DNA from: Burkholderiales bacterium Ga0074133
GTDB lineage: Bacteria > Pseudomonadota > Gammaproteobacteria > Burkholderiales > Burkholderiaceae_C
Assembly: GCA_001464865.1 (NCBI GenBank)
Contig: LNEG01000001.1
Span: forward strand, 48,530-112,529
DNA length: 64,000 nucleotides
Reading direction: 5' to 3'
Made by a program: the position numbers and the translations under genes. Every line of letters begins with the position of its first letter. Position 1 is the first letter of the stretch. The notes beneath the pieces are model-generated. The model had not been told where the DNA came from. It saw only the letters and a program-made list of their open reading frames with translations, and made no database searches. Of this stretch, positions 1-59,526 are shown one piece after another.

Positions 1-46
1 GGTTCAGAACCGGGATTTTGAGCGTTCGAGTCGCTCGCGGGGCACC
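1..46 (+). tRNA. Partial tRNA truncated by window start; loop TTCAGAA suggests anticodon CAG (Leu), uncertain
   Basis: CCGGG anticodon 3' stem, GAGCG-TTCGAGT-CGCTC T-arm, acceptor 3' end and CCA. Confidence 0.55.
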
Positions 47-57
47 ACTCTCAAATC

Positions 58-141
58 GCACGAATAGCCAAGTGGTCGAAGGCACCTGATTGCAAACCAG
101 GCGAGAAATCCTCAGCGGTTCGAATCCGTTTTCGTGCTCCA
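58..141 (+). tRNA. tRNA-Cys (GCA)
   Basis: Acceptor GCACGAA/TTCGTGC, loop TTGCAAA, T-loop TTCGAAT, encoded CCA; unusually long variable region. Confidence 0.75.
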
Positions 142-154
142 CACAACACCCAAC

Positions 155-244
155 GGAGAGATGCCGGAGTGGTCAAACGGCGCTGCCTCGAAAGCAGATG
201 GTCCATTCATGGGCACCAGGGTTCGAATCCCTGTTTCTCCGCCA
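155..244 (+). tRNA. tRNA-Ser (CGA)
   Basis: GGAGAGATGCCGGAGTGG start, loop CTCGAAA, long variable arm, CCA. Confidence 0.9.
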
Positions 245-254
245 CTCATACTTT

Positions 255-345
255 GGAAGCGTAGCCTCAATGGTAAGGCCCCCGATTTGAAATCGGAGTG
301 AGCAGTTCGCTGCTGTCCGGGTTCGAGTCTCCGGCGCTTCCGCCA
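255..345 (+). tRNA. tRNA-Ser (TGA)
   Basis: Acceptor GGAAGCG/CGCTTCC, loop TTTGAAA, long variable arm, CCA. Confidence 0.9.
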
Positions 346-355
346 AACACTTTAT

Positions 356-445
356 GGAGAGATGCCGGAGCGGTCAAACGGCGCACGTTGGAAACGTGAT
401 GGTCCCGCAAGGGACGCCAGAGTTCGAGTCTCTGTCTCTCCGCCA
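356..445 (+). tRNA. tRNA-Ser (GGA)
   Basis: GGAGAGA acceptor, loop TTGGAAA, long variable arm, CCA. Confidence 0.9.
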
Positions 446-459
446 GAACATAGATTTTT

Positions 460-545
460 GGAGGGTTGACCGAGTGGTTGAAGGTGACCGGCTGTAACCC
501 GGTTCTGTAAAAAGCGCGCTGGTCCGAATCCAGCACCCTCCACCA
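460..545 (+). tRNA. tRNA-Tyr (GTA)
   Basis: Acceptor GGAGGGT, loop CTGTAAC, class II variable arm, CCA. Confidence 0.9.
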
Positions 546-552
546 AAAATTT

Positions 553-627
553 CGGAGTGTCGGTAAGTGGCATACCACTCGCTTTGGGAGCGAGATTTCA
601 AGTGTTCGATTCACTTCACTCCGACCA
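553..627 (+). tRNA. tRNA-Pro (TGG)
   Basis: Acceptor CGGAGTG/CACTCCG, stem CTCGC/GCGAG, loop TTTGGGA, CCA. Confidence 0.9.
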
Positions 628-634
628 CCCACAT

Positions 635-710
635 GGGGACATAGCTCAGCTGGGAGAGCACTTGCCTTGCAAGCAATAGGTCCGCGGTTCAATCCCGCGT
701 GTCTCCACCA
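635..710 (+). tRNA. tRNA-Ala (TGC)
   Basis: GGGGACATAGCTCAGCTGGGAGAGC, loop CTTGCAA, CCA. Confidence 0.92.
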
Positions 711-726
711 TCACGACAATTTTTTC

Positions 727-800
727 GCGGCATTTCTCCTGGGAGAGGACTCAGCCTTCCAAGCTGATGGATGCGGGTTCGAATCCCCAATGTCGCTCCA
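727..800 (+). tRNA. tRNA-Gly (TCC)
   Basis: Acceptor GCGGCAT/ATGTCGC, loop CTTCCAA, CCA. Confidence 0.85.
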
Positions 801-805
801 ATCAT

Positions 806-880
806 GCCTGGTTAGCTCAGAGGAAGAGCACTCCCTCGATAAGGGATAGGTCGGGATTTCGAAACTCCCACTAGGCACCA
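806..880 (+). tRNA. tRNA-Ile (GAT), slightly degenerate
   Basis: GCCTGGTTAGCTCAG, loop TCGATAA (C at position 33), irregular T-arm, CCA. Confidence 0.75.
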
Positions 881-905
881 AAATCTAACTTTTCAGATCG
901 CATTT

Positions 906-981
906 GCCCTTTTAGCTCAATTGGTAGAGCAGCTGTTTTGTACTCAGCAGGTCGAGCGTTCGATTCGTTCAGGGGGCACCA
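906..981 (+). tRNA. tRNA-Thr (TGT)
   Basis: GCCCTTTTAGCTCAATTGGTAGAGC, loop TTTGTAC, CCA. Confidence 0.85.
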
Positions 982-990
982 TTTTTCATT

Positions 991-1066
991 GGCTGCATAG
1001 CTCAGCAGGTAGAGCACTGACCTCATAAGTCAGCGTGCGATGGTTCGACCCCATTTGCAGCCACCA
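991..1066 (+). tRNA. tRNA-Met-like (CAT)
   Basis: GGCTGCATAGCTCAG, stem CTGAC/GTCAG, loop CTCATAA, CCA. Confidence 0.9.
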
Positions 1067-1089
1067 ATCATACTTCTCGTCATCATATT

Positions 1090-1180
1090 GGAAAATTGGC
1101 CGAGTGGTCTAAGGCAACTGCCTGCTAAGCAGTGACTCTGAAATATGGGTTCATCAGTTCGAATCTGATATTTTCCGCCA
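1090..1180 (+). tRNA. tRNA-Ser (GCT)
   Basis: GGAAAATTGGCCGAGTGG, loop CTGCTAA, long variable arm, CCA. Confidence 0.9.
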
Positions 1181-1195
1181 CAGTTTTTTTTCTGT

Positions 1196-1271
1196 TCCCC
1201 AGTAGCTCAGTCGGTAGAGCGCCTCCCTGTTAAGGAGACCGTCCGTGGTTCGATCCCACGCTGGGGAGCCA
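1196..1271 (+). tRNA. tRNA-Asn (GTT)
   Basis: TCCCCAGTAGCTCAGTCGGTAGAGC, loop CTGTTAA, CCA. Confidence 0.93.
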
Positions 1272-1285
1272 ATCATTTTTCACGC

Positions 1286-1368
1286 GCCCATGTGGTGAAA
1301 CGGCAAACACAGCTGCCTCAAAAGCAGCCGCCACAGGCATGCTGGTTCGACTCCAGCCATGGGCACCA
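1286..1368 (+). tRNA. tRNA-Leu (CAA)
   Basis: Acceptor GCCCATG/CATGGGC, loop CTCAAAA, long variable arm, CCA. Confidence 0.9.
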
Positions 1369-1380
1369 TTCTTCAGTCAT

Positions 1381-1456
1381 GCGTCCATAGCTCAGCGGAT
1401 AGAGTGCCCGGCTACGAACCGGGAGGCCGGAGGTTTGAATCCTTCTGGACGCGCCA
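1381..1456 (+). tRNA. tRNA-Arg (ACG)
   Basis: GCGTCCATAGCTCAGCGGATAGAG, loop CTACGAA, CCA. Confidence 0.93.
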
Positions 1457-1462
1457 TCAACA

Positions 1463-1537
1463 GGCCTGTTAGCTCAGTGGTAGAGCGTCGGATTGTCCAT
1501 CCGAGTGTCCGGGGTTCAATTCCCCGATAGGCCGCCA
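1463..1537 (+). tRNA. tRNA-Asp (GTC)
   Basis: GGCCTGTTAGCTCAGTGGTAGAGC, loop TTGTCCA, CCA. Confidence 0.92.
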
Positions 1538-1541
1538 AATC

Positions 1542-1617
1542 GCCGCAATAACTCAGCGAACAGAGTGTGCGCCTCCTACGCGCAATGTCGCCAGTTTGAA
1601 TCTGGCTTGCGGCACCA
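1542..1617 (+). tRNA. tRNA-Arg (CCT)
   Basis: Acceptor GCCGCAA/TTGCGGC, stem TGCGC/GCGCA, loop CTCCTAC, CCA. Confidence 0.85.
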
Positions 1618-1937
1618 TCCAGTCGCATCTTCTTCACATGTGCCGGTGCCGTGACGCATCGCACTTCCCAACACCTCACTGCGTGCACGCCACGCCGTGT
1701 TGTGCCCAGGTCAGCTCAGCCCTGAAACCAGAAACGCTGAGAACGTGTCCGTGCAGGCCCTGCAGTCGCCACCGATAGGCGGCGTGGGGATCTGAGCACA
1801 TGGCCACGACGCAGTGCCCCGGACAAGATAGCCGCGAGGGGCGCAACGGCTGCAACCCGTCGAGCCAGTGTGGGACTGGCTGTTGAGGTTCGGCGCCAGC
1901 TCCCAAAGAGCTGTGCGACCGAAACCCATGCTCACAC

Positions 1938-2011
1938 GTCGGCTAGCTCAGAGGTAGAGCAGTGCCCTTACAAGGCAATGGTCCGCGGTTCAACCCCGTG
2001 GCCGACGACCA
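1938..2011 (+). tRNA. tRNA-Val (TAC)
   Basis: GTCGGCTAGCTCAGAGGTAGAGC, loop CTTACAA, CCA. Confidence 0.9.
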
Positions 2012-2017
2012 CTTCAT

Positions 2018-2090
2018 GCGGAAAAAGCTCTGCTGGTCGAGCGCAACCTTGCCAAGGTTGAGGTCGCGAGTTCGAACCTCGCTTTCCGCT
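2018..2090 (+). tRNA. tRNA-Gly (GCC), no encoded CCA
   Basis: Acceptor GCGGAAA/TTTCCGC, stem CAACC/GGTTG, loop TTGCCAA; 3' end reads TCAT rather than NCCA. Confidence 0.85.
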
Positions 2091-2256
2091 CATTCATTGT
2101 TCACATCATCAACTAGGAGTTTCCATGAAACGAAAACCGAAGGCACGAAAGGTGCCGGGCCCGCGAAATCCCCTCGTCGCGGTAGCCCACTTCAAGAGGG
2201 CTGGCAGTCACAGCAAGTCCAACAAGGCTCTGCGTCGCCAGGAAAAGTTTCACATG

Positions 2257-2330
2257 GGGGGTGTAGTTCAAGTGGAAGAACACTCGGCTTTTACCCGAGA
2301 TGTGCGGTTTCGATACCGACGCCCCCACCA
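2257..2330 (+). tRNA. tRNA-Lys (TTT)
   Basis: Acceptor GGGGGTG/CGCCCCC, stem CTCGG/CCGAG, loop CTTTTAC, CCA. Confidence 0.85.
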
Positions 2331-2376
2331 CGAGATCTCATTCCAAAGCGCAACTGCTTCGGAATGCGTTCTCCAT

Positions 2377-2450
2377 ACCTCGGTAGCTCAGTGATAGAGC
2401 AGGTGGTTTTCTACACCCCAGGTCGCGGCTCGTACCCGCCCGAGGTGCCA
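2377..2450 (+). tRNA. tRNA of ambiguous identity (Arg TCT or Glu TTC), possibly degenerate
   Basis: Acceptor ACCTCGG/CCGAGGT, canonical D-arm, CCA; anticodon and T-arm frames are irregular. Confidence 0.6.
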
Positions 2451-2458
2451 ATCTTTAT

Positions 2459-2534
2459 GGTGCGTGTAGCTCAGTGGCAGAGCCCCAGGTTGTGATCCTG
2501 GTTGTCGCGGGTTCGACCCCCGTCTCGCACCCCA
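2459..2534 (+). tRNA. tRNA-His (GTG)
   Basis: Extra 5' G and C73 discriminator, stem CCAGG/CCTGG, loop TTGTGAT, CCA. Confidence 0.88.
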
Positions 2535-2542
2535 AATCCATA

Positions 2543-2625
2543 GCCCGTGTGGTGGAACGGCAGACACGCGACCTTGAGGGGGTCGTGCTTCAAGCGTGCA
2601 GGTTCGACTCCTGCCACGGGCACCA
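2543..2625 (+). tRNA. tRNA-Leu (GAG)
   Basis: Acceptor GCCCGTG/CACGGGC, loop TTGAGGG, long variable arm, CCA. Confidence 0.9.
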
Positions 2626-2705: not shown

Positions 2706-3278
2706 ATGCAGATCCTGCGCCTCGACATCACTGGCTTCCCGCAAGCCTGGCTCTCCCCTGAGCAGGCCGCGCCGTACTACGCCACCGACTCGGTGTGTTG
2801 GACGGTCGGCGATGTGTGCACGTCACTTCGCGGAGGCATGAACAGCGTGACGGGGCGCCAGTCTCAGATCGACCTGCACCCCATCATTGCGGTGCGTGGC
2901 GCCGCTCAGGTCAACCTCTTCGATGCGGTGCCATCGTTGACGAATGCGAAGCTGTTCAAACGCGATCGCTACACCTGCGCTTACTGCGGCAACGTCCACC
3001 TGCGCGGCCTCACGCGGGATCACATCGTGCCGACCAGTAAAGGTGGTCTCGATGTCTGGCAGAACGTCGCGAGCGCCTGTCGCGGATGCAATGCTCTGAA
3101 GGGGTCGAGACTGCTGCAGCAGGCGGGTATGGAGCTTCTCTACACCCCCTATGTTCCTTCGGTCTTCGAGGGGTTCTTGCTGTCAGGGCGTCATATCCGC
3201 GCAGACGTGCACGAGTGGCTGGCAAGCCGGGTATCGAAGACTTCGAGGTGGTACGCGTCGACCCCACTGCTGAACTGA
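2706..3278 (+). CDS. HNH endonuclease
   Basis: LFKRDRYTCAYCG...LTRDHIVPTSKGG...WQNVASACRGCNALKG. Confidence 0.88.
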   Translation: MQILRLDITGFPQAWLSPEQAAPYYATDSVCWTVGDVCTSLRGGMNSVTGRQSQIDLHPIIAVRGAAQVNLFDAVPSLTNAKLFKRDRYTCAYCGNVHLRGLTRDHIVPTSKGGLDVWQNVASACRGCNALKGSRLLQQAGMELLYTPYVPSVFEGFLLSGRHIRADVHEWLASRVSKTSRWYASTPLLN

Positions 3279-46928: not shown

Positions 46929-49900
46929 TCAGGCCTTGAGAAATCGACGCGCCGACGCAGGGAGAGCAGCAGCCCGTGCAGGGTCAGGCTGGGATGAAGG
47001 AGGCGTGGACGGTGCGGGTTTGCCAGCCGCAGGTGTGTGGGCGCTCCGATGCGAGTTGGATCCCAGCAGCTGCAATCGCTTCATTGCGGTGGCCGGCATT
47101 GGGACGCTGGGGCTCCCATTTGGTGGTGCGGCCAAACGTGAAGGTGGTGCGGCGACAACTGGGCGCGTCCCAGCGGCCTGTGCAGAGCGGCGCAACCAGG
47201 GCTTGTGCTGTTGAGGTGGCGGGGTACCCTCCACCTTTGCTGCAGCAGGTGCTGTGGGTTGTGCTGGCGCCGCTTTGGGGACCTGAGGCGGTGTGGATGC
47301 AACACGTGCGCCGGCTTGGCGCAAAGAGACCAGGCTGACATGTTCTTTCGGACCAGAGATCTGGTCCCAGGTGTTCTTCGTTCCACCATCCGCTGGCTGG
47401 TCGCTGGTGCCAAAAGTGTAGGCAATGACCTTGTCCGAGCCCTTGGCTACCTTGGCATTTCGCGCGAACATGGCGGCATAGCCTGAGGAGGGTGGCTCAA
47501 AGCTCACCACGGCACCGCAATTGATCGCCATGTCGATTTCAGCGAGTCCGTCAACACCGGTCAACTGCATGAACCGCTCGTGGTAGTAGTTCGCTGCCGA
47601 GGCCGCACTCTGATCGGGTCCCACGAAGCGTGCTTCCTCGAAGGGTGCGGGCAGGTGCAACACCAAGCCTTTGACGGCGCTTTCCAGGTACAGGCGGACC
47701 GCGAGGTGGTCGGCCCAAGCTGCACCACCGCTGACCAGGATGTCTTCGGGACCCACGCGACCGCGCGCGTCGGCAACCATCGCCTCCCACAGTGCTTGGT
47801 CCATCTGCTCGTGCTTGTCGCGCCCGGCGGTGCCGATGATGGCAACGCGGCGACCATCTGCTTGATCGGTGGAACCTGCTGCAGGCACAGGTTGAGCCTT
47901 GTGTCCAGGCGACGCGGCCTTCGGGGTGATGGCCCCTTTTCTGTCGGTGCGCGGCGCCGTGGGGGATTGGCGGTCGTCCAGGTGGTTGATCCGCGAGTCC
48001 GGCAGTTCCATGAGGAATCGGCTGGGCTCCGACTCACGCGATTCGCCATTGTTCATGCGCTCATGGGCGTGGCTGATCGTGAGTGTTTTGCGCGCGCGTG
48101 TCAGCGCCACGTACATCAGCCGTCGCTCTTCCTGAAGTCCAGGGCCGTCGTCAGCTTCCACGTACTCATCCTGTGGCAGACCGCCCACGTAGACCATGCG
48201 AGACGCTTCTTCAATGGATCGACCGTTACCGCGCTGCTCGTCTTCTGCGATCGCGCGATTGTGGGGGAAGACGCCTTCCTCCAGGCCGGCGATGTAGACG
48301 TGGTCGAACTCCAACCCTTTGGAGGAGTGCACGGTCATAAGGCTGACGGTGTTCTTCTTGCTCATGTCGGACTCGGATGTCGAGGTCATGAGAGCAACGA
48401 AGGACAGGTATTCCGGCAGCTGCTCGGTGGCGGAGCGCAGCAAAGGGTTTTCGAGCTCGAACTGGCGCGCCGCTGAAATCAGTTCGGCGATGTTCTCCAT
48501 CCGCTCTTTGGCCTCGTCCTCGCTCGACTTGCTGCCGGTGGCCTCTTCGGTGTAGTGCTGCTCGATGCCCGTTTTCTTGAGGATTTCCTCGATCAGTCGG
48601 GACAGCGGCATGTTTTCTGCCGCATCAGCCAGGTCCAGGATGGTGGTGGTGAACGCGTGCAGTTGCCGGAGTTTCTTCTGTGCGGCCGCATTGCCCACCG
48701 AGGCCGGATTGAGCTGCATCATCTGGGCACGTTTGTCGACCATCTCGATCATCGAGATCCGCTCGGACTGGGCTTGCTGACGCAGATCCTCCAGCGTGCG
48801 CTCGCCAATGCCCCGGGGCGGGAAGTTGGCCACCCGAACGAAAGACAAATCTCGGCTGATGTCGGCTACCAAGTCGAGGTAGGCGAGGACGTTTTTGATT
48901 TCCTGGCGCTCGTAGAAGCGGAAGCCGCCGTAGACGGTCAGGGGAACGCCCAGTTTGTTGATCTCTTGTTCGAGAGCCCGGGACTGCATGTTCGTGCGAT
49001 ACAGGACCGCAATCTCCGAAGGGGAAACCCCGTCGTTCTTGATGCGGTCGTAGATCTTGGCTGCAATCGAAGCGGCTTCGAAGTGGCCGTTGCCATAGGT
49101 CACCATGTCGATTTGCTCACCGCCGTCGCTCTTGCTTGTTCGCAGCACCTTGCCGAGTCGGTTGGTGTTGCGCTCGATGATCGCGTTGGCGGCCTCGAGG
49201 ATGTGTGGCAGCGAGCGGTAGTTCTGCTCCAGGCGAATCATCCGTCCCTTGGGGCTCTTTGCATTGGCCGTCATGGTCTTCAGGAATTTCCCCATGTTCT
49301 TGGGGTCAGCTCCGCGGAAAGCGTAGATGCTTTGGTCGTCGTCACCCACTGCGGTGACATGGCACTTCGGACCCTTGAGGAGCTCAAGCCACTCGAACTG
49401 GATGTCGTTCGTGTCCTGGAACTCGTCAACCAAGATCGCGCGGAACCGGTCTTGGTAGTGCGATCGAACGGTCGAATTCGTTCGCAGCAGTTCGACGGCA
49501 CGCGCGAGCAGGTCCTGGAAGTCCAGAAGGCCCTGGCGATCCAGTCGTGACTGGTACTCGCCAAAAACGGCCTCCATCTGCTCTTCGTCGCTTGAGGACG
49601 CCGTCACCTGGGTGGTGATCAGCTCAGGCTTCTTGTTGCGCTCTTTCTTTTCGTTGATGTGCTTCACGCACTGCTTGGGCGTGACGAACTCCAGTGCTTC
49701 GGTGTCTTCTTCTTCGGCCTCTGCAACGCCGGCCAGTGGGTCAGCTGCAGACAAGAGGTCGGGCTTGGCCAGAGCAGCAAGCTTTTTCGCCTCCTTCACC
49801 GATGCCTTTGTCAGCCCAAAGTCTTTCAGGATGTTGCGAACCAGCGCTTCCTGGCCGTCCGTGTCCAGAATGGCAAAGGACTTTGGCAGCCCTGCTTCTG

Positions 49901-50411
49901 CGTAGTTCTCGCGCAGGATCCGATTGCAAAGGCTGTGGAAGGTGCCCACCCACAAACCGTTGATCGCACTCTTGTTCATCAAGGGGCGCAATCGGAGCTT
50001 CATCTCCTGCGAGGCCTTGTTCGTGAAGGTCACGGCCATGACGGCGGCGGCAGGAAGGGCGGGTTCGCCCTCGGAGATGAGTCGGGCAACACGCGCTGTG
50101 AGCACGGATGTCTTGCCAGATCCCGCGGCCGCCAGTACCAGTGCGGACTCATGGGGCATGAACACCGCTTCGCGTTGCTCTGTGTTCAGGCGGTCGTACA
50201 AGGCTTGACGGTTAGCAGCACGCTCCGCTTCACGCTTGGCGAATGCCGCCGCCGCCTCCTCATCGGACATCGGCAATCCGTCTGCGCGGTAGCCTGCAAC
50301 ATCGGAGTCGACCGCACCTTGCTCCACCACAGGCGGGGCGGCGCTTTCGAAATACTCTGCTGGCGCGTCCCAGGCGCCTTCGCCAAACGGGTCGTCGTAG
50401 ATGTTGCTCAT
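46929..50411 (-). CDS. UvrD/Rep-type SF1 helicase with C-terminal SLOG/DprA-like extension
   Basis: LNTEQREAVFMPHESALVLAAAGSGKTSVLTARVARL; VTAVGDDDQSIYAFRGADP; SLMTVHSSKGLEFDHVYIAGLEEGVFP; then RRVAIIGTAGRD...ILVSGGAAWADHLAVRLYLE...GYAAMFARNAKVAKGSDKVIAYTFG. Confidence 0.9.
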   Translation of the reverse strand: MSNIYDDPFGEGAWDAPAEYFESAAPPVVEQGAVDSDVAGYRADGLPMSDEEAAAAFAKREAERAANRQALYDRLNTEQREAVFMPHESALVLAAAGSGKTSVLTARVARLISEGEPALPAAAVMAVTFTNKASQEMKLRLRPLMNKSAINGLWVGTFHSLCNRILRENYAEAGLPKSFAILDTDGQEALVRNILKDFGLTKASVKEAKKLAALAKPDLLSAADPLAGVAEAEEEDTEALEFVTPKQCVKHINEKKERNKKPELITTQVTASSSDEEQMEAVFGEYQSRLDRQGLLDFQDLLARAVELLRTNSTVRSHYQDRFRAILVDEFQDTNDIQFEWLELLKGPKCHVTAVGDDDQSIYAFRGADPKNMGKFLKTMTANAKSPKGRMIRLEQNYRSLPHILEAANAIIERNTNRLGKVLRTSKSDGGEQIDMVTYGNGHFEAASIAAKIYDRIKNDGVSPSEIAVLYRTNMQSRALEQEINKLGVPLTVYGGFRFYERQEIKNVLAYLDLVADISRDLSFVRVANFPPRGIGERTLEDLRQQAQSERISMIEMVDKRAQMMQLNPASVGNAAAQKKLRQLHAFTTTILDLADAAENMPLSRLIEEILKKTGIEQHYTEEATGSKSSEDEAKERMENIAELISAARQFELENPLLRSATEQLPEYLSFVALMTSTSESDMSKKNTVSLMTVHSSKGLEFDHVYIAGLEEGVFPHNRAIAEDEQRGNGRSIEEASRMVYVGGLPQDEYVEADDGPGLQEERRLMYVALTRARKTLTISHAHERMNNGESRESEPSRFLMELPDSRINHLDDRQSPTAPRTDRKGAITPKAASPGHKAQPVPAAGSTDQADGRRVAIIGTAGRDKHEQMDQALWEAMVADARGRVGPEDILVSGGAAWADHLAVRLYLESAVKGLVLHLPAPFEEARFVGPDQSAASAANYYHERFMQLTGVDGLAEIDMAINCGAVVSFEPPSSGYAAMFARNAKVAKGSDKVIAYTFGTSDQPADGGTKNTWDQISGPKEHVSLVSLRQAGARVASTPPQVPKAAPAQPTAPAAAKVEGTPPPQQHKPWLRRSAQAAGTRPVVAAPPSRLAAPPNGSPSVPMPATAMKRLQLLGSNSHRSAHTPAAGKPAPSTPPSSQPDPARAAALPASARRFLKA

Positions 50412-57132: not shown

Positions 57133-59526
57133 ATGCATACCGTGAACCAACAGAACAGCAAGACCGCAGCGCCTGCGCGCAAGCGACTTTTCGCCAACTC
57201 TCATTCGCTTCAGGAGGAGATTGCGGCTGCCGCTGCAACTGGTGCATCTGCTGCTTCAGCGTCCGCTCCTGCTTCTCCCAGCCCGCTGCAACTCCCTGCG
57301 CCGTCAACCCCCTCCGCATTGGAGAAAGAGTCGGCCCAGAAGCAGTTCGAGGATGCCACGGCCATTCTTGAGTCCCTCTACGACCTGGTCAAGGAAAAGT
57401 GGCCAGGGTTCATCGCCCGCGATGGTCAGCGTCAGATGATGAACGAGGCGTTGATGGCATTCCTGCAAGCCAAGGACGCTGATGATGAGACGCGCGGTGA
57501 GAACCTGGCCACGCTGGAAGCTGGCACCGGCACCGGCAAAACCGTTGCGTATTGCCTGGCCGCCATCGCTGCGAGCCGGGTGACGGGAAAAAAGGTTGTC
57601 ATCTCCACTGCGACAGTCGCACTGCAGGAGCAGCTGGTGGAGCGCGATCTGCCGAGGCTTTCCGAAGTCTTGGGCGGAATCGAGTTCCAGATTCTCAAGG
57701 GGCGCAACCGCTATGTCTGCAAGTCGAAGCTCGACGGTGCAGCGGAAAACGACTTCGCGTCGTACCTGTTTGATGAAGAAGAAGCCGAGCCAGCTGGGAA
57801 GAATGAGGGCTTTGCTTCTGTCGCCAAGTCCTTGGCTGTTCAGTTCGACTCGTTGAGCTGGAACGGGGAGATGGATACGCTTCCCCAGAAGCTCGAGCCT
57901 CAGGACTGGCGAAAAATCCAGGCGGATACCTCGACCTGCACCAACAGCAAGTGCGACAACTTCAAGAAGTGTGCCTTCTATGTTGCCCGTGGCAAGGCAA
58001 AAGACGTGCCCATTCTGGTGGGCAACCACGCCCTGGTTCTGTCCAATCTTGCGCGTGAGGCCAAGATCTTGAAGCCGTCCGAACACCTCTTCGTGTTCGA
58101 TGAGGCCCATCACCTGCCCGATATCGCTGCCGACCAGTTTGCGACGAATGCCCGCCTGGGTAGCACCGAGAAGGCTCTCTCGCGAGCAAAGACCTTGCTG
58201 CAAAAGGCTTCCAAGGAGTGCGCACCCGAAGTGCAGAGCCAGGCCAATGCCATTGGTGGACTGGTCTCGAACGCCATTGAGCGGGTCCGCTTCCTCCGGA
58301 ACACTTTCGAGAACTCCAACCTGTTCGCTCAGGGAGATTCTCTCTACCGGTTCCAGAACGGTCTGGTCCCTGAATCGTTGGCCGAGCAGTTCACCGAAAC
58401 TGGCGTTGACCTCACATCTGTTCTGAATGCGTGTCAACTGGTCCAGGCAGATCTCCGCGGCGCAGCAGAGGATGTCTCACCTTCAGAGCGCGCTGCGCGA
58501 GCAAAGCTCGAAGGCGAAATTGCGATGTGTGCCCAGGTGCTCATTGAAGCCGCCAAAGTCTGCCGGTACCTCGCACGTCATGAAGGCGTGCCGTTGGTCA
58601 AGTGGATCGATGTGATTCCGATGCGAGGCAGTGTCGACTTCAAGCTCAATGCAAGTCCTCTTACTCCGGCCGCCGGGCTTCATGCAGGTCTTTGGTCCAA
58701 GGTGAGTGCGGCAATTTGCACCTCCGCGACGATGACGGCCTGCGGCAACTTTGACTACTACGACCGATTGACCGGTCTCAACCGGATGCCCGACCGCCGG
58801 TCCGCCATTGTCGAGTCCCCCTTCGACTACCAGAAGCAGGGCCTTCTGCGCGTGGCGCCGATGGTCAACAACCCGAAGTCGGCGTCGTTTTCAGCTGAAC
58901 TCGAAAAGCTTCTGCCCGAACTCCTGGCATCTGGCCAGGGTGGTCAGCTGGTTTTGTTCACATCCAAGCGCCAGATGAACGCCTGCTACGAAGCGCTGAC
59001 GCCAGAGTTGCGCGCGTCGGTTCTTGTTCAGGGCCAGGGCGCACGCGGCGACATGCTTCGTGAACACGGAAAACGTGTCGAGGCAGGCAAGCCCAGCATC
59101 CTTTTCGGGCTTCAGTCCCTGGGGGAGGGCATCGACTTGCCCGGCAACCTGTGCACGCACGTGATCATCGACAAGCTGCCCTTCACTCCGCCCACGACGC
59201 CGGCTGATGCCGCGCTTGCGGAATGGCTCGAGTCACAGGGCCGCGATGCTTTCACCGAGATCTCGGTGCCGAAGGCCTCGATGAAGCTTGCCCAGTGGAT
59301 TGGTCGCGGCATTCGCACGGTGTCCGACAGAGCTGTCATCACCATTTGTGACACCCGCCTGGCCACGACTCGCTATGGGCAGCACATCGTTGCAGGACTT
59401 CCCAACTTCCCGTTCGAAGTCATGCGGCTTCCAGGCGCTGACATGTCTGCCGGTCAGTCGCCTCCCCGCTCTTCAGATATCCCTCAAACAAAAGGTCGGC
59501 ACTTTAAGCGATCAGCTGCGCACTGA
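57133..59526 (+). CDS. DinG-like Fe-S SF2 helicase
   Basis: LATLEAGTGTGKTVAYCLAAIA; CKSKLDGAAEND...CTNSKCDNFKKCAFY; FVFDEAHHLPD; SILFGLQSLGEGIDLPG; LAQWIGRGIRT. Confidence 0.9.
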   Translation: MHTVNQQNSKTAAPARKRLFANSHSLQEEIAAAAATGASAASASAPASPSPLQLPAPSTPSALEKESAQKQFEDATAILESLYDLVKEKWPGFIARDGQRQMMNEALMAFLQAKDADDETRGENLATLEAGTGTGKTVAYCLAAIAASRVTGKKVVISTATVALQEQLVERDLPRLSEVLGGIEFQILKGRNRYVCKSKLDGAAENDFASYLFDEEEAEPAGKNEGFASVAKSLAVQFDSLSWNGEMDTLPQKLEPQDWRKIQADTSTCTNSKCDNFKKCAFYVARGKAKDVPILVGNHALVLSNLAREAKILKPSEHLFVFDEAHHLPDIAADQFATNARLGSTEKALSRAKTLLQKASKECAPEVQSQANAIGGLVSNAIERVRFLRNTFENSNLFAQGDSLYRFQNGLVPESLAEQFTETGVDLTSVLNACQLVQADLRGAAEDVSPSERAARAKLEGEIAMCAQVLIEAAKVCRYLARHEGVPLVKWIDVIPMRGSVDFKLNASPLTPAAGLHAGLWSKVSAAICTSATMTACGNFDYYDRLTGLNRMPDRRSAIVESPFDYQKQGLLRVAPMVNNPKSASFSAELEKLLPELLASGQGGQLVLFTSKRQMNACYEALTPELRASVLVQGQGARGDMLREHGKRVEAGKPSILFGLQSLGEGIDLPGNLCTHVIIDKLPFTPPTTPADAALAEWLESQGRDAFTEISVPKASMKLAQWIGRGIRTVSDRAVITICDTRLATTRYGQHIVAGLPNFPFEVMRLPGADMSAGQSPPRSSDIPQTKGRHFKRSAAH

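Follow-up and report, generated by a model that had tools for sequence, protein, structure and literature searches.

The left end of a 64,000-nucleotide stretch of DNA from the metagenome-assembled genome (MAG) of Burkholderiales bacterium Ga0074133 (assembly GCA_001464865.1; contig LNEG01000001.1, here G000:C1, positions 48,530–112,529; hereafter the window) carries a dense array of tRNA genes, which continues leftwards into the adjoining segment of the same contig (L031, G000:C1:28531–48530; contig position = L031 position + 28,530). ARAGORN called 22 plus-strand tRNAs at 58–2625 of the window and Rfam family RF00005 added one at 2377–2447, giving 23 complete tRNAs, all above the RF00005 gathering score (range 31–67 bits). 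Bases 1–47 are the 3' part of a plus-strand tRNA-Leu(CAG) gene clipped by the window edge, and five further tRNAs (Met, Glu, Trp, Phe and Gln; L031:19437–19947) lie to the left of the window. Counted from its start, some 560 bp beyond the left edge of the window, the whole array comprises 29 tRNA genes with 28 distinct anticodons, serving 20 of the 20 amino acids; at 29 tRNAs in 3.2 kb, it has the density of a tRNA array unit (at least 20 genes, at least 2 per kb). A preliminary description, made from the letters of the window, had rightly proposed a tRNA array of a mobile element, cut off at the edge of the window, and had listed its anticodons correctly; the array does extend upstream, on a plasmid-like contig, and is larger than the roughly 25 genes then counted. 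The control region described below, which is most informative about the working of the array, lay beyond the reach of that description.

The plus-strand genes of the window start with 17 tRNAs within 58–1617 (Cys, Ser-CGA, Ser-TGA, Ser-GGA, Tyr, Pro, Ala, Gly-TCC, Ile, Thr, Met, Ser-GCT, Asn, Leu-CAA, Arg-ACG, Asp and Arg-CCT). Both ARAGORN and Rfam then recognised tRNA-Val(TAC) and tRNA-Gly(GCC) (1937–2091), tRNA-Lys(TTT) (2257–2330), and tRNA-His(GTG) and tRNA-Leu(GAG) (2460–2625), and Rfam detected (39.4 bits) the gene at 2377–2450, best read as tRNA-Arg(TCT), which ARAGORN misses at default settings. We rejected an assignment of this last gene as a second tRNA-Glu because, on direct reading, the TCT (Arg) register pairs better. 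CCA is encoded by every gene of the array except Gly-GCC (2018–2091), as the statement that nearly all encode it had implied, and the first tRNA-Met shows, on direct reading of its sequence, the C1:A72 mismatch that is an initiator feature. Spacing is mostly 4–25 bp, close to the 5–30 bp given previously, but gaps of about 46–320 bp occur on both sides of Lys and before Val. A reading of the array as mostly pseudogenes was also rejected, since no tRNA falls below the covariance-model cut-off. Two anticodon loops are unusual: tRNA-Ile (806–880) has C at position 33, where U is near-universal, and tRNA-Asp (1463–1537) has C37/A38.

The contig encodes a Rep3 initiator, DnaB, a type IV secretion system (T4SS) TraI-like protein, a TraD-like ATPase and an integrase, which bears out the rep and conjugation genes reported earlier, and is likely a conjugative plasmid or megaplasmid. 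Such a location on a mobile element is typical of tRNA array units, and related arrays sit on named plasmids. The array duplicates anticodons already present in the host, and its tRNAs share 62–83% identity (median 73.5%) with the best host tRNA of the same isotype and differ from host tRNAs in their anticodon loops; isotypes that are redundant with chromosomal tRNAs, with distinct sequences, are likewise a property of these units. This divergence from the chromosomal tRNAs, together with the plasmid genes on the contig, led us to reject a chromosomal or misassembled cluster.

Related arrays share an HNH gene

The array is followed by a plus-strand gene for a 190-aa HNH endonuclease (2706–3278; Pfam HNH_5/HNH). 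DNA searches found the same arrangement, tRNA array and then HNH gene, in Variovorax RA8 plasmid 3 and Polaromonas P1-6 plasmid 1. Protein searches gave a match in 352 of 400 genomes of the family, mostly a chromosomal paralog, for which reason the HNH protein alone was rejected as a marker of arrays. Second HNH copies, with 52–68% identity, lie behind tRNA arrays, and at least two tRNAs stand immediately 5' of the HNH gene in 34 of the 40 related loci fetched. Among these arrays are those of Methylibium PM1, with 27 tRNAs for 20 amino acids, Variovorax WDL1 plasmid 3, with 27, and Variovorax SRS16 plasmid 2, with about 40. In the HNH tree, array-linked copies group together (38 array rows plus five without array; support 92/98) and the chromosomal clade is separate (support 99/95); on this tree, the array HNH belongs to a clade almost confined to tRNA arrays. 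The chromosomal paralog, present in most of the 400 genomes, may explain the origin of the array HNH.

The leader codons match the tRNAs of the array

A control region lies about 1 kb left of the window (L031:18780–19435), where the 5' to 3' order is regulator, promoter and palindrome, leader open reading frame (ORF), terminator, boxA, structured RNA and tRNAs. The regulator gene (L031:18347–18730) is 36% identical to the regulator beside the Polaromonas array. A predicted promoter with a TGTAAAC/GTTTACA palindrome (L031:18797–18825) precedes a 64-codon leader ORF, MNRLPINARTASKPAPAGRAMLCAIGCDWQSPISYSIEVLHSGVSKLAQQTAAFENSLYPGGTG (L031:18865–19059). The palindrome, as GTAAA-N-TTTAC, occurs at most 170 nt from the leader in 29 of 33 loci, and 31 times overall in 459 kb.

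Leaders were picked by rule, as the longest ORF with a ribosome-binding site and a stop codon just 5' of the terminator, ignoring composition. The 64 codons of the leader specify all 20 amino acids and include a cognate codon for 27 of the 28 array anticodons. All 20 amino acids are likewise present in 17 of 33 unique leaders, as compared with 1.0 expected from equal-length windows of local ORFs, and in none of the leaders when read in the +1 and +2 frames. Across the 22 complete loci, 267 of the 268 amino acids supplied by the arrays have a leader codon, and an amino acid absent from the leader is also absent from the array in 18 of 19 cases (permutation mean 8.8, standard deviation 2.0, P about 5e-5). 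The match extends to codons: cognate codons in the leaders cover 315 of the 328 array anticodons, against 257 with random windows and 301 after synonymous reshuffling. The leader sequence itself drifts and its dN/dS is not low, yet the amino acid set is retained; a C-terminal PGEG-like motif is conserved. As in attenuators, this is a short ORF with a ribosome-binding site, located 5' of an intrinsic terminator and before the structural genes, and its regulatory codons are cognate to the regulated product.

A terminator and an antiterminator share one arm

Folding predicted an antiterminator at L031:19027–19106 and an intrinsic terminator at L031:19092–19127. The transcript up to the terminator 5' arm folds as a three-way junction antiterminator, and at 32 of the 33 loci no other fold has a lower energy. 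In it, CCGGG of the leader (codons −6/−5 from the stop) pairs with CCCGG of the terminator, enclosing a first hairpin, whose loop contains or adjoins the stop codon, and then a second one. The conserved C-terminal codons of the leader thus form the antiterminator strand, and, because the terminator requires the same CCCGG, one arm is common to both structures. Nine antiterminator pairs show both-sided changes, as compared with 4.9 in shuffled data (2/500 shuffles). The terminator of our locus contains a 1 × 1 internal loop; it was missed by the automatic terminator scan and is visible by folding. Mutually exclusive antiterminator and terminator structures, positioned relative to a stop codon, are a defining property of attenuators, and ribosome-mediated attenuation is, from the sequence, a well supported reading of the control region.

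A covariance model of the attenuator region matched 35 of 398 genomes of the order, several of them in other families and with tRNAs downstream, and the search supplied further all-20 leaders (L087, L076, L092 and L205). Three matches, L191, L195 and L200, are not followed by a tRNA; the array may have degenerated there, or the switch may control other genes.

boxA and a structured RNA precede the first tRNA

In our locus, an rRNA-type boxA occupies L031:19166–19175; in most arrays that have a boxA, its position is about −60 relative to the first tRNA. The same boxA 12-mer is found before the 16S rRNA gene in one relative (G061) and in the 16S–23S spacer in another (G642). The 13-mer TGCTCTTTAACAA has no copy in the MAG itself, and the comparison with rrn boxA thus covers these two relatives. 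A genome collection (one genome per species, 85,462 species) was scanned for boxA with the start of a tRNA-Gly gene behind it; 22 of the 23 hits are array starts, and the same search of viral contigs gave no matches. In genome G197, the other exact copy of boxA, near 9551 of C1 (L206), stands before a second tRNA array, likewise on this contig of 6.6 Mb.

Between boxA and the tRNAs, at about L031:19295–19431, is a conserved structured RNA. It is roughly 140 nt long and has a GGGATGTGC/GTGCAGCGA core; its long closing stem covaries, and 12 of 27 pairs show both-sided changes. It also occurs in L034, L035, L068, L071 and other loci, where it too lies just 5' in the array. In an Rfam search of this RNA in one relative, nothing matched besides tRNA.

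Phage arrays have complete or partial leaders

Arrays of phages were reached through relatives of the HNH gene in viral contigs. Some phage leaders encode all 20 amino acids in few codons (20/20 in 35 codons in L248, and in 41 in L258). Because leaders of this type were ranked by composition, control positions were used for comparison: 3 of 54 arrays, as compared with 1 of 822 control positions, reached P ≤ 0.01. Other phage arrays supply a partial set, and their leaders spell that set: LCSLSLSSYSLSLS (L257), LCLSLSSYCSLSLS and CLSSLSSYSSLLS for {C,L,S,Y} arrays, TKRGITRMTTKRVIWG for {G,I,K,M,R,T,V,W} arrays, NRANSNHPAQTVATPFQGG for {A,F,G,H,N,P,Q,R,T} arrays and MRNRKPNPMQWQPKRHF for an {F,H,K,M,N,P,Q,R,W} array. 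The smallest possible P, 1/201, was reached by 12 of 51 candidate phage leader–array pairs, and 139 of 148 phage array anticodons have a cognate leader codon. On average, a fraction of 0.72 of the leader residues is served by the leader's own array, as compared with 0.25 by arrays of other types (14 pairs), and the leader of L257 provides a separate codon for every one of the nine anticodons. The leader of Salicola phage SCTP-2 is accompanied by an attenuator fold.

We consider it very probable that, as a general principle, the leader codons of plasmid and phage arrays list exactly the tRNAs encoded downstream, a shortage of any of which would induce its replacement. With similar confidence, we place this principle in Burkholderiales plasmids, where the leaders are of the all-20 type, and in uncultured phages of several unrelated groups, where they are all-20 or partial.

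A proposed inducible replacement set of tRNAs

We propose, with a probability of roughly 85%, that the array is an inducible replacement tRNA set under ribosome-mediated transcription attenuation, which senses a shortage of the same tRNAs. At the level of sequence, the leader, terminator, antiterminator and boxA are conserved, and the leader codons match the array tRNAs. The promoter, probably held by the neighbouring regulator, would transcribe the leader ORF. With all charged tRNAs plentiful, the leading ribosome would reach the stop codon and cover the 5' strand of the antiterminator, allowing the terminator to fold and stop transcription before the array. If any one tRNA were missing, the ribosome would stall upstream and leave that strand free; the three-way antiterminator would then take the terminator 5' arm and the polymerase would read through, its processivity across about 3 kb of untranslated RNA being maintained by the rRNA-type boxA. 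Divergent tRNAs for all 20 amino acids would refill the lost pool. Translation of the leader, induction of the array by stalling and repression by the regulator are inferred. The natural trigger would be tRNA destruction, by toxins or by anti-phage or anti-plasmid nucleases.

A replacement function is suggested because the tRNAs are divergent and the set complete, because an RNA ligase gene lies within the Variovorax RA8 array, and because phage tRNAs have been proposed or shown, in the available text of two studies (PMC10264068, PMC11555353), to replace tRNAs destroyed by host defence. Among the roles suggested in the preliminary description, replacement of depleted tRNAs fits best; codon supply and an integration platform fare poorly.

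Several observations weigh against our proposal. The leader of L068 lacks Asp, although its array has an Asp tRNA. The Burkholderiales leaders share ancestry, so the per-locus P values are not independent and are optimistic. The energy of the duplex between the leader tail and the terminator arm, taken alone, barely beats shuffled sequences (mean z −0.9); we judged this test weak and used whole-region folding in its place. Several strong matches to the attenuator model have no tRNA nearby, and the comparison with host tRNAs is incomplete because the Trp, Cys, Ile and Ala-TGC tRNAs were not found in the MAG. Finally, no recognisable leader was found in mycobacterial, Acidiphilium and most viral arrays examined, and the mechanism is therefore not universal.

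The purpose of whole tRNA sets on mobile elements has been debated for decades, with codon supply, tRNA-destroying defences, or neither, as the answer. A leader that is a written record of what its array senses makes the question directly testable: if we are right, depleting any listed tRNA would turn the array on, and depleting unlisted ones would not. The leaders would also predict which arrays act as units and which tRNAs are attacked by defences, and would offer a natural reporter for the loss of any tRNA.

Alternative explanations

The leader could instead be an arrest peptide, or a general sensor of translation speed, that responds to ribosome-targeting antibiotics, with the array aiding survival of the drug. 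Such a role is reported for the trn operon on an Anabaena megaplasmid, which is induced by translation inhibitors (PMC10272220), and the conserved PGEG-like C-terminus could be read as an arrest motif. However, the conserved C-terminal codons make the antiterminator strand, and the leader sequence drifts, without a low dN/dS, while the amino acid set is retained and tracks the array. Phage leaders spell partial tRNA sets, and an arrest peptide requires neither this nor conservation of the set, so we regard this explanation as unlikely.

Classical attenuators respond to starvation (PMC1183508), and a leader with all 20 amino acids would stall under starvation too, such that uncharged tRNA from any exhausted amino acid could trigger the switch. 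Extra tRNA genes are nevertheless useless when the amino acid itself is absent. The regulated product is tRNA, and the codon match at the isoacceptor level (9/9 in L257) points to sensing of tRNA species, which makes a starvation sensor very unlikely.

We find it highly improbable that the array supplies codons to match plasmid usage, with the upstream sequence being incidental. This is the classical idea for phage tRNAs (reviewed in PMC10264068), and codon use appears to differ between the plasmid and the other contigs (r 0.75, from crude ORF calls). It explains neither the near-complete set, which spans all 20 amino acids, includes an initiator-like Met and repeats anticodons that the host already has, nor the codon-matched leader and the conserved attenuator. 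We give equally little credence to an integration or homing cassette, spread by the HNH endonuclease and with the tRNAs as attachment sites, since, apart from an HNH gene of an array-linked clade behind most arrays, whose mycobacterial counterparts have been read as homing endonucleases (in the available part of PMC5966550), nothing supports an integration platform: no repeats or integration boundaries were seen at the array, though no systematic search was made, codon-matched leaders, boxA and regulator are not predicted by it, and homing may be an added mobility layer rather than the function.

Relation to known systems

HNH-bearing tRNA arrays of mycobacteria and the stress-induced array of Anabaena are already known. 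Mycobacterial arrays occur in plasmids, phages and chromosomes, with at least 20 dense tRNA genes for 19–20 amino acids, and some carry an XRE regulator or a release-factor-like gene, according to the available text of PMC5966550 and PMC12803027. Our array resembles these tRNA array units, as there described, in being a dense, mobile set that has diverged from chromosomal tRNAs and has a conserved HNH endonuclease, but differs from them in sequences and gene order. The same text mentions no leader peptide, attenuator or boxA, and our detection of leaders and attenuators found none in one mycobacterial plasmid (L181).

The trn operon of Anabaena PCC 7120 contains 26 megaplasmid tRNA genes that are normally silent and are induced by translational stress, under the repressor TrcR (PMC10272220). 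It shares with our array a large tRNA set on a megaplasmid-type replicon and a regulator, but its regulator is of the ribbon-helix-helix (RHH) type with another operator, and neither leader nor terminator is mentioned. The trp, his and leu attenuators combine a leader ORF containing regulatory codons with mutually exclusive antiterminator and terminator structures (PMC1183508), and, as here, the position of the stop codon means that a ribosome terminating there promotes formation of the terminator. They sense one or few amino acids and control enzymes, whereas the leader described here lists, and would control, the tRNA set itself. Phage tRNAs that counter anticodon nucleases and retron/PrrC defences rely in the available text (PMC10264068, PMC11555353) on evasion by tRNA sequence or on strong promoters, not on attenuation. 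In the open-access literature, with subscription journals outside the scope of the search, we found no published attenuator or leader peptide controlling tRNA arrays.

Other genes and elements

A small basic ORF, MKRKPKARKVPGPRNPLVAVAHF..., with a strong ribosome-binding site starts at 2125 on the plus strand, reaches 2256 without a stop before tRNA-Lys and continues in frame to 2394. RNase P cleavage at tRNA-Lys would turn the message of this ORF into a nonstop mRNA; we considered an ArfA-like nonstop rescue gene, but a Pfam search gave no match. Comparable small ORFs lie within the arrays of L034 and L035, but stop before the next tRNA.

The array of Variovorax RA8 encloses the RNA ligase gene (Pfam RNA_ligase; L034:20863–21924), in which we read directly from the sequence an HNH-like N-terminal part before the ligase domain. 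The tRNA array of Arthrobacter phage Mimi also contains an RNA ligase gene (L214:1042–2016), and the presence of such genes within arrays suggests tRNA repair beside tRNA replacement. A few kb 3' of the array HNH in Variovorax SRS16 plasmid 2 is a peptide-chain-release-factor-like gene (L108:13817–14335), similar to the RF-1-like genes of mycobacterial arrays. A second conserved element, the short spacer AAACCGGCCGCAA..ATTGGGCGGC..CGGAACCCGTAACCGG, is repeated among the array tRNAs of L034 (19857–19905), L035 (8305–8350), L073, L101, L104 and L108. Elsewhere on the contig of our array are a UvrD-like helicase gene (window 46929–50411), whose product resembles DRT/Gabija helicases, and a gene for a DinG helicase (window 57133–59526) resembling the type IV CRISPR-associated one.

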